Source: Deltaproteobacteria bacterium RIFOXYA12_FULL_61_11 (GTDB lineage: Bacteria; Bdellovibrionota_F; JAHFAK01; YA12-FULL-61-11). Taken from it: a stretch of DNA of 8,207 nucleotides. Position 1 is the first letter of the stretch, and each line of letters opens with the position of its first letter. Where the stretch lies: positions 1-8,207 of the forward strand of contig MGSU01000187.1 in NCBI GenBank assembly GCA_001799195.1, in the 5' to 3' direction. The notes below the pieces were generated by a model. That model searched no databases, was not told the DNA's origin, and was given only the letters and a program-made list of their open reading frames with translations. Of this stretch, positions 1 to 6,146 are shown piece after piece. Made by a program: the position numbers and the translations under genes.

Positions 1-2037
1 TCGATCCCGACCGTCGCAGGTCCAACCGACACCTCCGCCGCCCCGTCCGACCCTCCGGAAACCGTCTCCGAAGGGCTTAGCCCGCACCCCGACCTCTCCG
101 GCGATGGCGCCTCACCCGTATCCAACCCCTCGCCCGTGACCGAAGCCCCGAGCGAAACAGCCCCTCAGCGGTCCAGCCCTCCGGCATCGTTCTTCTCGTC
201 ACCCTACGCCCTCCTCGTCGCCAACAGCGTCTTGTTGGCTTCGACCATGGGTCTCACGGCGAGCATCCTCCCCGACGGCAACGTGTTCATCGCGCCCTTG
301 ACCGGAGCCGCTGTCGGCGGATTGTTCACCTATGGCTTCTTATGGGACCAACCTCACGCGCCCGGTTTCCCCCTCTTCCTGGGTTCGGCTTACGGGTACG
401 GCGCGCTCTTCGGTTACAGCGCCTACACCCTCTCGCCCCTGCGTTTCCACGGGGGCCGGCGGGTCTCGATCCTCAGCGGCGAGCTGCTCGGTTCGACCCT
501 GGCGTATCTGCGGCGCGACCTCCTCACCGCGGGGCCGGAAGAGCTCCTGACCATCGACCTGGCCTCGGCGGCGGCCCTGGGCCTCGCCACCGGGGTCCTG
601 CTCCAGTTCGATACTCCCTCTGAGCGAGTGGTCGCGGGCACGCTCGGCCTGGTCGGGGCCACTTCCTTGGTCGGAGCCACCCTCCTCTGCGACAAGGTGC
701 ATCCGACGGCAACCGATCTCCACAACACCTTCGCCTGGGCCCTCTTCGGCGGGCTCGGCGGGCTCGTCGCCCCCGGTACCCGTCGTCTCGAGGGCGGCTT
801 CCTCCTCGGACTCTCCGCTGGACTCGAGTTCTCCCTCCTCGAGAACCGGTATTTCGACCAGGCCCAGACCCAAAGGGCCTGGAGGGAGGTCGCCACCTAT
901 GACGCCGCGCTGTTCGGCCTCTCGCTAGGCCTACTCCTCGACCGAGCGGTAGGTCCGCTGGACAAGGACGAGACCACCCAAGCCCTGGTGCTCGGCTCGG
1001 CCATGCTCGGCCGCGCTGCGGCCTACGTTCTCCACTCGCCCTCGGTCGACCTCGCCTCACCCTCGACCTCTCCGGCGCTGATCTATGGGCTCTTCGGGGC
1101 CTGGGAGGGATTTCTCCTCTCGTGGAGCGTGTCCGGCGAGGAGCAGGTCGAGCGGCGGAACGGCGGCATGCTGCTGGGTGGCCTCCTCGGGTTCAACGGG
1201 TACCTCCTCGCCCACGAGCGCCTGACCGAGCTGCAACTCGGCTCGCCCGGGGCAGTGCTCCTGGCTCCGGTCGGTTCCATGCTCGGGTTCGGCCTGGGAT
1301 CGTTCATGACCCCCTCGAAGTACGTCAAGTTCCCCCTGGCCGCGGCAGGCGGGGCTCTCGGCGTTGCCGGCGCCTCCCGCTACCTCGGCGGCAAGGACCT
1401 CCCACTGGACTATCTCCTCGGGTTCGTGCCGGGGGTGACCTCTTCGATCCTGGCCCTCAACGCCCTCGAAGAGCTGGACACCAACACCCCTCAACACCGC
1501 AGCGACGGCATTGCCACGCTGACCGCCGCCACCTACCCGCTGCTCTTCTTTTTCCAAGGGCATCGCCGCGACGACCCCTTCTTGGACACGGTGACCCCGA
1601 CCTTATTCTCGCTGACCGGCTTCTCGCTGGGGTACTTCGTCGGCAATGGATGGTTCGGGGCCCGGCGGAACACCCCCCCGACCTTCGGGCTCCTCGGTCT
1701 GAACCTCGGCGTGGCAACGGCCCTGCTCCAACTCCACGATCTACCGCGCTTCGAGCCGTATGCCCCGCTGGCAGTGATGGGCGTGGGGTATACCGCATTG
1801 GGCTTGGGCGCCATCGTCTCAGGCAGCACCAGAGTCCACGCCATAACCTTGACCTCCGGCCTGCTGCTGGGCGGTTTCCTCGAGAGCCGTTTCGGGCTGG
1901 GCGCCCGATTGAGCGGCCTGCTCGGAACCGGGGGCTCGCGGGGAGGTCCGGCAGCGACACTCCCACTCCCTCAGCCCTTCGTGAGTCGCGACGAAGAAGG
2001 CCTCACCCTGGTCGGACTCCAAGGTATCTTCCCCTAA
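1..2037 (+). CDS. Polytopic glycine-rich membrane protein of unknown function, 5'-truncated by the window
   Basis: I do not recognise this family. The reading frame is open from base 1, giving 678 visible residues before TAA at 2035-2037. The first in-frame start codon is GTG at 136, but it has no Shine-Dalgarno and the frame stays open upstream, so the true start is probably outside the window. Visible residues 1 to about 65 are rich in Pro, Ser, Thr and Asp and look like a disordered, exposed segment or linker. The rest is a long series of roughly 18-20 hydrophobic stretches, many with glycine-zipper spacing, such as GGMLLGGLLGFNGYLL and GFGLGSF, joined by short loops with acidic residues or Arg. 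This predicts a multi-spanning inner-membrane protein. I see no transporter signature, catalytic motif or nucleotide-binding site. The lipoprotein gene starts 65 nt downstream on the same strand and could share its transcript. Coding status and membrane location are secure; function is unknown. Confidence 0.85.
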   Translation, partial: SIPTVAGPTDTSAAPSDPPETVSEGLSPHPDLSGDGASPVSNPSPVTEAPSETAPQRSSPPASFFSSPYALLVANSVLLASTMGLTASILPDGNVFIAPLTGAAVGGLFTYGFLWDQPHAPGFPLFLGSAYGYGALFGYSAYTLSPLRFHGGRRVSILSGELLGSTLAYLRRDLLTAGPEELLTIDLASAAALGLATGVLLQFDTPSERVVAGTLGLVGATSLVGATLLCDKVHPTATDLHNTFAWALFGGLGGLVAPGTRRLEGGFLLGLSAGLEFSLLENRYFDQAQTQRAWREVATYDAALFGLSLGLLLDRAVGPLDKDETTQALVLGSAMLGRAAAYVLHSPSVDLASPSTSPALIYGLFGAWEGFLLSWSVSGEEQVERRNGGMLLGGLLGFNGYLLAHERLTELQLGSPGAVLLAPVGSMLGFGLGSFMTPSKYVKFPLAAAGGALGVAGASRYLGGKDLPLDYLLGFVPGVTSSILALNALEELDTNTPQHRSDGIATLTAATYPLLFFFQGHRRDDPFLDTVTPTLFSLTGFSLGYFVGNGWFGARRNTPPTFGLLGLNLGVATALLQLHDLPRFEPYAPLAVMGVGYTALGLGAIVSGSTRVHAITLTSGLLLGGFLESRFGLGARLSGLLGTGGSRGGPAATLPLPQPFVSRDEEGLTLVGLQGIFP

Positions 2038-2102: not shown

Positions 2103-3176
2103 ATGTTCCACCGCCTGCATCCGGTGCTCCTCCCACTCGTCTTCCTCTGGCTCTCTTGCAGCGACGACACCGTCCACCGCGAAGGATCCTCACCTCGCAT
2201 CGGCTGCACCAGCACGAGTTGTCCCGACGGGTATTACTGTCACGCTCAGAGCGGTTCGTGCATGCCACGGGCGACCTCTGCAACCCCGGCGCAGGAAGAA
2301 GCCTCCGAGCCCTCCTCGGACCACACCGCCCAACCCGATCCCGCAGACGCAGCCGAACCCACGGCCGACCAGGACCAACAGCCAGCGCCCCTTCCGGCAA
2401 CGACCCCCTGCACCTGCGGCGACCCCGAGGTCGAACCCTGCGGTCATTGCGAGGGCCGCTGTCCCGGAATATGTATGCTCGAGACGATGAGCTGCCAACA
2501 GGCCGAGAGCGCCTACGCGGGTACCCTCTCGTTTCGGTGCGTCTCCACGACCGAGCCGACGCCCCCGCCTCCCGGTCCCCATGACCCGGTCTGCACGTCG
2601 AATTGCGCGGGAAAGACCTGCGGCGCGGACGATGGCTGCGAAGGTACCTGTGGAGCCCCGACCGATGACGGCTGCCCCCTGGCCGGCGCCACGACCTTGG
2701 CCGATTTCGAGGTCTTCGGGTCCTGGTCGATCGGCGATCAGGCCAACGGGACCTTCAGCCGTGCCACCGATCAATTCCACGGCGGAGCGACTTCGGCCGC
2801 GTTGGCTTACTCCTTCCCCACCGCCGCCAACGACTTCGTGGTCTTCCGGCAGGACAGCCGAGAAACCATACCCGACTCCACGACGAAACTCTCGGCCTGG
2901 GTGTATGGGGACGGCAAAGGCTTCTTCTTCAACCTCTGGGTCCTCGACTCCACCGGTACGGCCTGGTCCATCCCCCTCGGACGCACCGACCACAACGGCT
3001 GGAAACGGCTCGAGAACACGCTCGTGATCCACGCCTGGCCGGGTGGGCACATCTTTGGTACCGGCACGGCGATCTCGAAGCCGTTGCGACTCTACGGCGT
3101 GGTCCTCGACGATGCTCCGGACAGCTTCACGGGAAACGGTACCATCTACCTGGACGACCTGCAGGCCTTGCCCTGA
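2103..3176 (+). CDS. Cys-rich lipoprotein with C-terminal jelly-roll-like domain
   Basis: This is a predicted 357-residue exported lipoprotein. The frame extends far upstream inside the preceding gene, but ATG 2103 is chosen because GAGG lies 8 nt before it (2091-2094) and a signal peptide begins there. A short n-region with Arg4 leads into a hydrophobic core and a lipobox-like FLWLSC, with lipidated Cys19; Trp at -3 is atypical. Residues 35-53 carry four Cys (including CPDGYYC), and 54-100 form an acidic Pro/Ala/Gln linker. A Cys-rich block follows at 103-146, then a second small motif at 164-183 (CTSNCAGKTCG and GCEGTCG) like repeats common in myxococcal-type secreted proteins. Residues 198-356 (FEVFGSWS, LSAWVYGDG, GWKRLE, GTIYLDDLQA) resemble the beta-sandwich, carbohydrate-binding-like domains found at the ends of extracellular glycosidases. 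No catalytic residues are evident, so binding or a structural surface role is inferred. The next gene is convergent, 38 nt away. Confidence 0.88.
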   Translation: MFHRLHPVLLPLVFLWLSCSDDTVHREGSSPRIGCTSTSCPDGYYCHAQSGSCMPRATSATPAQEEASEPSSDHTAQPDPADAAEPTADQDQQPAPLPATTPCTCGDPEVEPCGHCEGRCPGICMLETMSCQQAESAYAGTLSFRCVSTTEPTPPPPGPHDPVCTSNCAGKTCGADDGCEGTCGAPTDDGCPLAGATTLADFEVFGSWSIGDQANGTFSRATDQFHGGATSAALAYSFPTAANDFVVFRQDSRETIPDSTTKLSAWVYGDGKGFFFNLWVLDSTGTAWSIPLGRTDHNGWKRLENTLVIHAWPGGHIFGTGTAISKPLRLYGVVLDDAPDSFTGNGTIYLDDLQALP

Positions 3177-3214: not shown

Positions 3215-3904
3215 TCAAGCAGTCGGTCCGGCCTTTCCCAATTCCCCCCTGCGCAGTCCGAAGAACCCAACCTTGAGACCGCTGCGCAGGAGGAGGGCTC
3301 TCGCCTTGCCGTGGAGCAGGACCAGGCAGACGAAATCGACGACGGGCAAGAACAGGGCGAGAACGACGAGGAGCACGAAGGGCCGGGGAAAACGCATGGC
3401 CCTGGTCAGCCGGAACACGACCCACAACGAGAAGGGGACGTTGAACAGGCAGAGGAGCGGCTCCGCCGCCCTGGCGAGGGCGAAGATCATGGCGAAGACC
3501 AACATGCGTTGCGCTTGGGCGATAATGCTGATGTCGGCAACGACCACGCTCCGCACCACGCTGGCCGGGTCATCATCAACAACGGTCGTAGGTCTGGGAG
3601 GTGGGTTCTCGAAGTTCCACGGATTGATCAGCAGGAAGGTACTTTCTCCGAGGCTGATCCTGTCCCCGGGGTGTACCGAGGCGGTGCCGACACGTAACCC
3701 ATTGAGATAGGTGCCGTTGGTGGTGCCGAGATCGCGCAGGGTGATTCCCGCAAGCGAGATCTCGAGCGTGGCATGGCTGCGAGACAGGTTGATGTCCGGG
3801 ATCTTGACGGCATTGCCGAACCCCCGACCGATAGTGGTCTCGCCGGCGCGGATCATGAGGTCGTTCCCCCGCAACGGACCGGTTTCGAACAGTATCTTGT
3901 ACAT
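3215..3904 (-). CDS. FHA-domain protein with C-terminal membrane region
   Basis: This 229-residue protein begins with a forkhead-associated domain (about residues 4-92), a phosphothreonine-peptide recognition module. The family landmarks are present in order: GR at 26-27, SRSH at 41-44, TTNG at 61-64 and NG at 68-69. SRSH and the following TNG are the residues that contact the phosphopeptide in characterised FHA domains. A Pro/Asp-rich linker (about 99-117) leads to hydrophobic segments near 133-165 and 176-197, then a basic tail containing KVGFFG. The FHA head should therefore be cytoplasmic and tethered to the inner membrane. The start is supported by GGAGGG (3913-3918) with 8-nt spacing. 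The gene begins only 24 nt after the symporter stop, which suggests co-transcription. FHA domains usually act with Ser/Thr kinases, but none is encoded here, so the partner is unknown. The membrane half resembles uncharacterised bacterial proteins and I assign it no function. Confidence 0.92.
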   Translation of the reverse strand: MYKILFETGPLRGNDLMIRAGETTIGRGFGNAVKIPDINLSRSHATLEISLAGITLRDLGTTNGTYLNGLRVGTASVHPGDRISLGESTFLLINPWNFENPPPRPTTVVDDDPASVVRSVVVADISIIAQAQRMLVFAMIFALARAAEPLLCLFNVPFSLWVVFRLTRAMRFPRPFVLLVVLALFLPVVDFVCLVLLHGKARALLLRSGLKVGFFGLRRGELGKAGPTA

Positions 3905-5315: not shown

Positions 5316-5389
5316 TAGGCGCGAGGGGACTCGAACCCATGGCCTCTACCGTGTGAAGGTAGCGCTCTAACCAACTGAGCTACGCGCCT
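5316..5389 (-). tRNA. tRNA-Val (anticodon CAC)
   Basis: The 74-nt gene folds as a complete cloverleaf. The acceptor is AGGCGCG paired with CGCGCCU, followed by U8 and A9, D stem GCUC/GAGC, anticodon stem CUACC/GGUAG around loop UUCACAC, a 5-nt variable loop (AGGCC), and a T loop UUCGAGU. Positions 34-36 read CAC, decoding the valine codon GUG. The discriminator is A73 and CCA is not encoded (the genome reads ATCC there), so CCA must be added by tRNA nucleotidyltransferase. The T stem AUGGG/CCCCU contains one U50/C64 mismatch. A promoter lies just upstream and a hairpin just downstream, so it looks like a single-tRNA transcription unit. Confidence 0.95.
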
Positions 5390-5455: not shown

Positions 5456-5881
5456 TCAATCGCATTGGCGATTGTCGAGCTTCTGGACCGGGCGGTTCTG
5501 CGGGGTGACCTCGTAACAGGCGTATTCCCCGTCGTGGTCGAGGTCGTGCCATTCCGAGAAGAAGCCGTAGGTCGCGCGGCAGTGCGAACCATCGACTGTT
5601 TGCACGGGGAAGTTCTTCGGGGTGACCTCCCAGCAGGCGTACATGCCATCAGCGTCACGGTCGTGCCAGGCATAGAAGGTCCCGTAGGCCTGCCGGCAGC
5701 GGGAGAGGTCGGCCTTCGCGACGATGCCGTTCTTCTGGGTCACCTGGTAACAGGTGTATTCTCCGTCATGATCGCGGTCGTGCCAGGCAAAGTAGTCTGC
5801 TCGGGCGGCGCTCGAGAAAAGGCCGATCATCACCATCCCGAGAACAAGCAAAGAGCCGGGAAGACGTTTGGTGGTAGACAT
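5456..5881 (-). CDS. Small secreted protein made of three 39-residue DxDxDG/Cys repeats
   Basis: I do not recognise this 141-residue protein. It starts with a signal peptide (Lys5, Arg6, hydrophobic 11-22) and a probable signal peptidase I site after Ala-Arg-Ala28. The mature chain is three tandem repeats with exact 39-residue spacing: Trp33/72/111, loop Cys44/83/122 and second Cys62/101/140. Each repeat reads WHDxDxDGxYxC, a VTxKN or VTPQN stretch, then a later Cys. The loop matches an EF-hand-type Ca2+ loop at positions 1, 3, 5 and 6. Position 12 is Glu in repeats 2 and 3 (Glu85, Glu124) but Gln46 in repeat 1. The pattern also recalls the DxDxDGxxC of Excalibur domains, although the surrounding sequence differs. 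Disulfide-stapled metal-binding modules in the periplasm or outside the cell are inferred. ATG 5881 has GGAG (5889-5892) at 7-nt spacing. The gene ends 26 nt before the tRNA promoter. Confidence 0.88.
   Translation of the reverse strand: MSTTKRLPGSLLVLGMVMIGLFSSAARADYFAWHDRDHDGEYTCYQVTQKNGIVAKADLSRCRQAYGTFYAWHDRDADGMYACWEVTPKNFPVQTVDGSHCRATYGFFSEWHDLDHDGEYACYEVTPQNRPVQKLDNRQCD
5459..5797 (-). repeat. Three tandem 117-bp coding repeats (39 residues each)
   Basis: Unit 1 is 5681-5797, unit 2 is 5564-5680 and unit 3 is 5459-5563, the last shortened by four codons. Spacing is exactly 117 bp with no indels between units. Recognisable DNA identity persists around the tryptophan/DxDxDG part and the VTP part, but many third positions differ. 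The units therefore look like old duplications held in register by selection, not recent slippage. Confidence 0.85.
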
Positions 5882-5943
5882 GGGAGTGCTCCATTGGTCA
5901 GGTTTCCGTTATCCACGCCGCTAGCAAAAGATGCGCCACTATT

Positions 5944-5960
5944 GTTGCAACATTTGCAAC
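5944..5960. promoter_or_regulatory. 17-bp palindrome in divergent intergenic region, possible operator
   Basis: GTTGCAA-CAT-TTGCAAC is a perfect 7+7 bp inverted repeat with a 3-bp centre. It lies in an AT-richer patch between the divergent repeat-protein gene (start at 5881) and glycosyltransferase gene (start at 6147). A weak plus-strand promoter-like pair overlaps it: TTGTTG (5942-5947), 17 bp, TAGATT (5965-5970). On the minus strand its TTGCAA could be a -35 for the repeat gene, but the -10 17 bp later (TTGCTA) is poor. The rest of 5882-6146 shows no further clear element except those listed separately. Confidence 0.4.
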
Positions 5961-6133
5961 GTGTTAGATTTGCCGCTTGGTGTCATCTCGACCGCGCTCC
6001 AGAAACCTGAACGCCAATCTTACTCTTGTGAGAACACCGGAGGAAACCTGGGTTGCGCTCACTCGTCCGGCGCAAGGTTGAGGAATACCGGAAGCCCAAA
6101 AACGACCCGCTGGTCTTCTTCACCGGTGACGGC

Positions 6134-6139
6134 TATCAT
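6134..6139 (+). promoter_or_regulatory. -10 box TATCAT placed for a leaderless glycosyltransferase mRNA
   Basis: TATCAT differs from TATAAT at one base and ends 7 nt before the ATG at 6147, which would put transcription start at or beside the A of the start codon. No Shine-Dalgarno precedes this ATG. The candidate -35 17 bp upstream (TGGTCT, 6111-6116) is weak. Together these fit a leaderless transcript, but a longer leader from the region near 5965 is an alternative. Confidence 0.4.
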
Positions 6140-6146
6140 TCCGATC

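Follow-up and report, generated by a model that had tools for sequence, protein, structure and literature searches.

Loops of the DxDxDG type lie between two strands and bind Ca2+ in several unrelated folds, and a loop inserted between strands of CD2 makes a Ca2+ site (PMC3123361). The extra ligand of these loops always comes further along the chain, and it is common for the motif to be present in some homologues and missing from others (PMC3123361). Excalibur domains (PF05901) exhibit two Cys, a Cys-helix that comes first and a DxDxDGxxCE motif; a disulfide ties the helix to the site, and the domain is unfolded without Ca2+ (PMC5137146). Here, we describe a 141-aa protein (P0002), encoded in a window of 8,207 nucleotides (the whole stretch of DNA analysed), that combines DxDxDG loops with pairs of Cys in three tandem repeats.

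The ORF for the three-repeat protein is a real gene (Table 1): its GC content at the three codon positions (0.59/0.44/0.78) resembles that of a transporter gene read in the same direction (0.64/0.49/0.76), and its ATG is preceded by GGAG ~8 bases upstream. An earlier reading made from the DNA letters (hereafter the sequence-only reading) had the gene coordinates right; the coding strand is the minus strand, and the plus frame translates to an unrelated sequence. The N-terminus exhibits a probable Sec signal of the AxA type, cut after Ala28, and export is predicted for the mature protein of 113 aa (13.3 kDa, pI ~5.0). Four DsbA-family matches in the source genome are compatible with periplasmic disulfide formation. 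No sigma-70 consensus was found on either strand of the intergenic region upstream of the gene. Further downstream of the gene lie a sodium:dicarboxylate symporter and an FHA-domain protein, while a Clp ATPase gene sits past the divergent glycosyltransferase gene; the neighbouring genes in the window suggested no candidate partner or ligand.

Table 1. Features of the three-repeat locus (positions are those of the window).
Feature	Position	Strand	Details	Basis
Gene of the 141-aa three-repeat protein (P0002)	5456..5881	-	Stop codon included	ORF, codon-position GC, GGAG
Probable signal peptide	5798..5881	-	Residues 1-28: KR n-region, LLVLGMVMIGLF core, ARA at -3 to -1	Sequence
Repeat 1	5678..5794	-	Residues 30-68: loop D35-Q46, C44, C62	
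Repeat 2	5561..5677	-	Residues 69-107: loop D74-E85, C83, C101; modelled beta-beta-beta-alpha	
Repeat 3	5459..5560	-	Residues 108-141: loop D113-E124, C122, C140	
Intergenic region, three-repeat gene to divergent glycosyltransferase gene (start 6147)	5882..6146	.	265 bases	
tRNA-Val (CAC), separate feature downstream of the three-repeat gene	5316..5389	-		

The sequence-only reading had described the chain after Ala28 as three 39-residue repeats. The register was indeed exact, with W33/W72/W111, C44/C83/C122 and C62/C101/C140 each 39 residues apart, and all three repeats carried WHDxDxDGxYxC and a second Cys 18 residues past the loop Cys; the third unit is only 34 residues long, however, stopping one residue past its second Cys. 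Loop position 12 was Gln, Glu and Glu in repeats 1, 2 and 3 (DRDHDGEYTCYQ, DRDADGMYACWE and DLDHDGEYACYE, respectively), as had been read; from this difference the sequence-only reading proposed that the sites may differ in affinity. Self-similarity at an offset of 39 scored 233, compared to at most 21 when the mature chain was shuffled 2000 times. Pairs of repeats were 53–59% identical in protein and 64–69% identical in DNA, and the codon was kept at identical residues in only 9/20, 13/17 and 12/19 cases for the three pairs. Because identical residues often differ in codon, the duplications are not recent; the repeats have had time to drift, and the frame was retained meanwhile. Invariant columns made up 14 of the 34 shared by the repeats (W, H, D, D, D, G, Y, C, V, T, N, V, D and C). 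Within DxDxDG, positions 1, 3, 5 and 6 were constant in all three repeats and positions 2 and 4 varied; given 14/34 invariant columns, a hand calculation put the chance of all four core positions being invariant at ~2%.

Structure models, which were built from the window sequence alone, placed DxDxDG in a beta-hairpin turn rather than between two helices. A single 41-residue unit, modelled from an alignment of just three sequences (the window repeats of this one protein), gave a mean pLDDT of 87.4 with a beta-beta-beta-alpha order (E3-9, E15-20, E26-29, H32-39), and in a single-sequence model of the whole protein (pLDDT 63) the elements of each repeat followed nearly this order. No fold match was found in the PDB (best Foldseek E 1.4; no VIA-align Z ≥ 2). 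Of the previous label 'EF-hand-like', only the six-residue DxDxDG core survives, as the unit is predicted to be strand-loop-strand-strand-helix. The repeats share DxDxDG with the canonical EF-hand; at position 12, which is Glu/Asp in the EF-hand, repeats 2 and 3 have the acidic Glu and repeat 1 the amide Gln. The flanks here are predicted strands, and positions 8 and 10 are Tyr and Cys. The EF-hand was rejected on the predicted strands, which replace helix-loop-helix, and no EF-hand Pfam model matched.

The repeats also resemble the DxDxDG strand-loop-strand class, including the calcium blades (Rigden and Galperin 2004; Rigden et al. 2011, PMC3123361), which also has Dx[DN]xDG at a hairpin turn (predicted here). 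In all three repeats and in the model, the motif lies between secondary-structure elements and is followed by a later acidic or amide residue. Compared to calcium blades, however, the hairpin belongs to a Cys-Cys unit of 39 residues instead of a propeller blade, and there are three units only; the later acidic residue is five on (as in one glycoside hydrolase and in EF-hands) instead of two on, and loop position 9 is Thr/Ala instead of acidic. We infer that the three repeats bind calcium, and the later ligand could be the Gln/Glu at position 12.

No family in Pfam, NCBIfam, PHROGs or the PDB sequences claimed either the protein or its repeats, in agreement with the earlier suggestion of an undescribed repeat module; Pfam matches of the snake toxin type and to Ig_5 and Binary_toxB were all under cut-off and were treated as chance. 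A protein search gave two weak matches, both in the source genome (4.6 Mb, 87% complete, with one other genome of its class in the collection searched), and both of these are repeat proteins. One, C79, carries a signal and comprises four units in 163 residues; the other, C52 (L003:1225-2187), has 288 residues, an export-type N-terminus and two units between Pro/Thr/Glu-rich linkers. The tail of C52 consists of about a dozen 10-residue repeats of the YYLDENGYAY type and is extremely Tyr- and Asp-rich. When the window repeats were compared profile to profile with the two paralogues separately, the matches ran along almost the whole unit (E 1e-6 for C52 and 3e-4 for C79), and none of 40 column shuffles matched the score of either. 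An alignment of the three proteins showed W, the hairpin Cys and the second Cys to be common to all nine units, and tandem units of the form W-x(8-10)-C-x(17-19)-C number nine in three predicted exported proteins of one genome. A nine-unit profile search of this genome returned the three known proteins and nothing else significant. Variable copy number, set beforehand as a check, was borne out by the 3, 4 and 2 repeats of these proteins.

The paralogues did not bear out a calcium-binding module as the definition of the family, since DxDxDG is absent from the units of both C79 and C52, yet the W/Cys/Cys frame is kept; at the place of the loop, C52 repeat 1 reads SNPADG, against DRDADG. What defines the family is thus the hairpin-helix knuckle stapled by cysteines, present in 2–4 copies, and the calcium-type loop at the turn of this knuckle is particular to one paralogue. 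As the paralogues lack the loop, calcium is not essential to the fold. The C52 repeats have Gln/Glu two residues past the hairpin Cys without any DxDxDG, and for this reason the Gln/Glu at position 12 may have a structural role instead of binding metal. Branching was not resolved in a tree built from all nine repeats, with which either gain or loss of the loop would be consistent. We consider it a tentative and rather doubtful proposal that this is a lineage-restricted knuckle family with calcium loops acquired by one paralogue at its hairpin turn and just a lone 'DG' left in a sister (C52 repeat 1); if true, it would provide a within-genome example of a convergent DxDxDG motif arising or being lost.

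All three paralogues have an even number of Cys, with alternating gaps between successive ones: 18/21 for the window protein, 18-19/17 for C79 and 20/19 for C52. Each array begins with a hairpin Cys and has its last second Cys within a residue or two of its end, and the flanking linkers of C52 make its unit boundaries plain. Because the arrays open with the hairpin Cys and close just past the second Cys, the unit boundaries of all three proteins favour the C44-C62 type of disulfide that had been proposed, and pairing is presumably within each knuckle. An Asp preceding the second Cys is also conserved; as most C79 units have it too, and are without the loop, it more probably caps the helix.

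Our preferred reading, held with slightly better than even confidence, is of an exported, disulfide-stapled binding or scaffold protein with three knuckles braced by calcium. The mature chain would consist of three knuckles in a row, each folding independently. In every knuckle, strand 1 (FYxWHD), the DxDxDG turn and strand 2 (xYxCYEVT) would form a beta hairpin, followed by a short third strand (PVxxVD) and then a short helix, with the disulfide tying strand 2 to the helix. Candidate Ca2+ ligands would be Asp 1, 3 and 5, the residue 7 carbonyl and a side chain further along, possibly Glu/Gln 12. Bound Ca2+ would stiffen the hairpin turn outside the cytoplasm, and in the periplasm or at the surface the array would probably act as a rigid element for binding or scaffolding, with calcium as a structural brace and not a signal. 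Counting against this reading are the Gln at position 12 of repeat 1, the Thr/Ala at position 9, the loop-less paralogues, the lack of a PDB fold match, neighbours that point to no ligand and a best model fed by just three sequences.

It is possible, if rather unlikely, that the knuckle itself is a functional peptide- or glycan-binding repeat and that the DxDxDG turn is an acidic flexible tip with no metal in vivo. The retention of W, Cys and Cys in both paralogues without DxDxDG is in favour of this, as is the Glu/Gln of C52, which need not be a ligand where there is no loop. However, the pattern within the loop, in which the four core positions are constant and those between them vary across all three repeats, fits selection for ligands and counts against this reading.

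Counted from C62, the order of elements is helix-Cys and then DxDxDGxYxC, as in Excalibur. A divergent Excalibur array would pair C62-C83 and C101-C122 in Cys-helix-DxDxDG-Cys units folding on calcium, as the Excalibur disulfide joins the helix to the site and the domain folds only with Ca2+ (PMC5137146); the two also share a length of ~40 residues, export, DxDxDG followed by Cys, one helix and two Cys (PF05901; CbpL, PDB 5J8T, PMC5137146). Nevertheless, Excalibur has a Cys before the loop, Cys at loop position 9 and Glu at 10, whereas the repeats have Cys at 10, Glu/Gln at 12, a second Cys 18 residues past the loop Cys and three predicted strands, and DxDxDGxxCE occurs in none of the three loops. 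Neither the protein nor any of the nine repeats matched the Pfam Excalibur model at E up to 10, the source genome had no match at E up to 1, and hhalign of the window repeats with a real Excalibur protein gave a probability of 0.2%. The Excalibur register would also leave C44 and C140 unpaired, and both paralogue arrays begin and end against it. With Cys order, spacing and Glu position all different and the profile tests negative, the Excalibur relation raised by the sequence-only reading fell away, and we regard a divergent array of this kind as very unlikely.

Outside the source genome, searches with the repeat profiles brought up no convincing relative in 385 other genomes, where four weak matches were attributed to chance (none had the tandem W/Cys/Cys frame), or in 195 genomes of the phylum of G029 and G176, chosen because the Clp proteins of these two rank among the closest to that of the window. 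Plasmid, phage and viral searches yielded nothing usable. A scan of ~85,000 species for W-x-D-x-D-x-D-G-x-Y-x-C, a strict pattern applied to records that may omit relatives near the source genome, gave 30 stretches, none of which was in a tandem two-Cys array. Restriction to this lineage holds for the collections searched only.

The pattern scan led to secreted proteins of Oribacterium and related Lachnospiraceae (L010, L013, L015, L016, L021, L023, L025, L033, L036) with a single W.WIDxDGDGxYxCYAF hairpin and a weak Choline_bind_2 match, and some of these loci have two such genes. This is apparently a cell-wall-binding hairpin with a calcium-type turn and a Cys. Like the window protein, these secreted proteins have a WxDxDGDGxYxCYxF hairpin (weakly PF19085-like), and hhalign of the Oribacterium sequences with the window repeats gave an E of 2.6e-7 over 19 columns, which could suggest that the repeats are choline-binding-like cell-wall hairpins with a DGDG turn and a Cys that bind an envelope polymer. 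However, the Oribacterium sequences were chosen by the same motif, which biases the match, and little aligns outside that motif; they have one copy, lack the second Cys and differ in downstream sequence, and the window repeats matched no choline-binding profile. We find this reading, too, highly improbable. The notion of remote YegP/DUF1508 (PF07411) beta-beta-beta-alpha relatives, prompted by the top PDB matches in Foldseek (3bid and 2k7i, the latter a UPF0339 (YegP family) protein; E 1.4-2.0), is barely credible and was rejected on an hhalign probability of 0.1-0.2% over one aligned column, on shuffled columns that did as well in 17 of 40 cases and on VIA Z values that never reached 2.

If the calcium-braced knuckle is right, an unlisted scaffold would be added to the folds known to carry a DxDxDG calcium loop, and the tandem copies together with loop-less paralogues in the same genome would allow gain and loss of the loop to be studied directly. 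A self-contained, disulfide-stapled calcium knuckle of 39 residues would also suit protein engineering as a compact subject. No known pathway is altered by the finding.

Other ORFs of the window were also of note. A long hydrophobic, Gly/Leu-rich ORF (1-2037, plus strand) runs off the window edge and had no Pfam match. Positions 2103-3176 (plus strand) encode a probable lipoprotein (LWLSC) of 357 aa that had no Pfam match and has a Cys-rich N-terminal part (CTSTSCPDGYYC..., CTCGDPEVEPCGHCEGRC). The FHA-domain protein (3215-3904, minus strand) exhibits a membrane-like stretch at its C-terminus.
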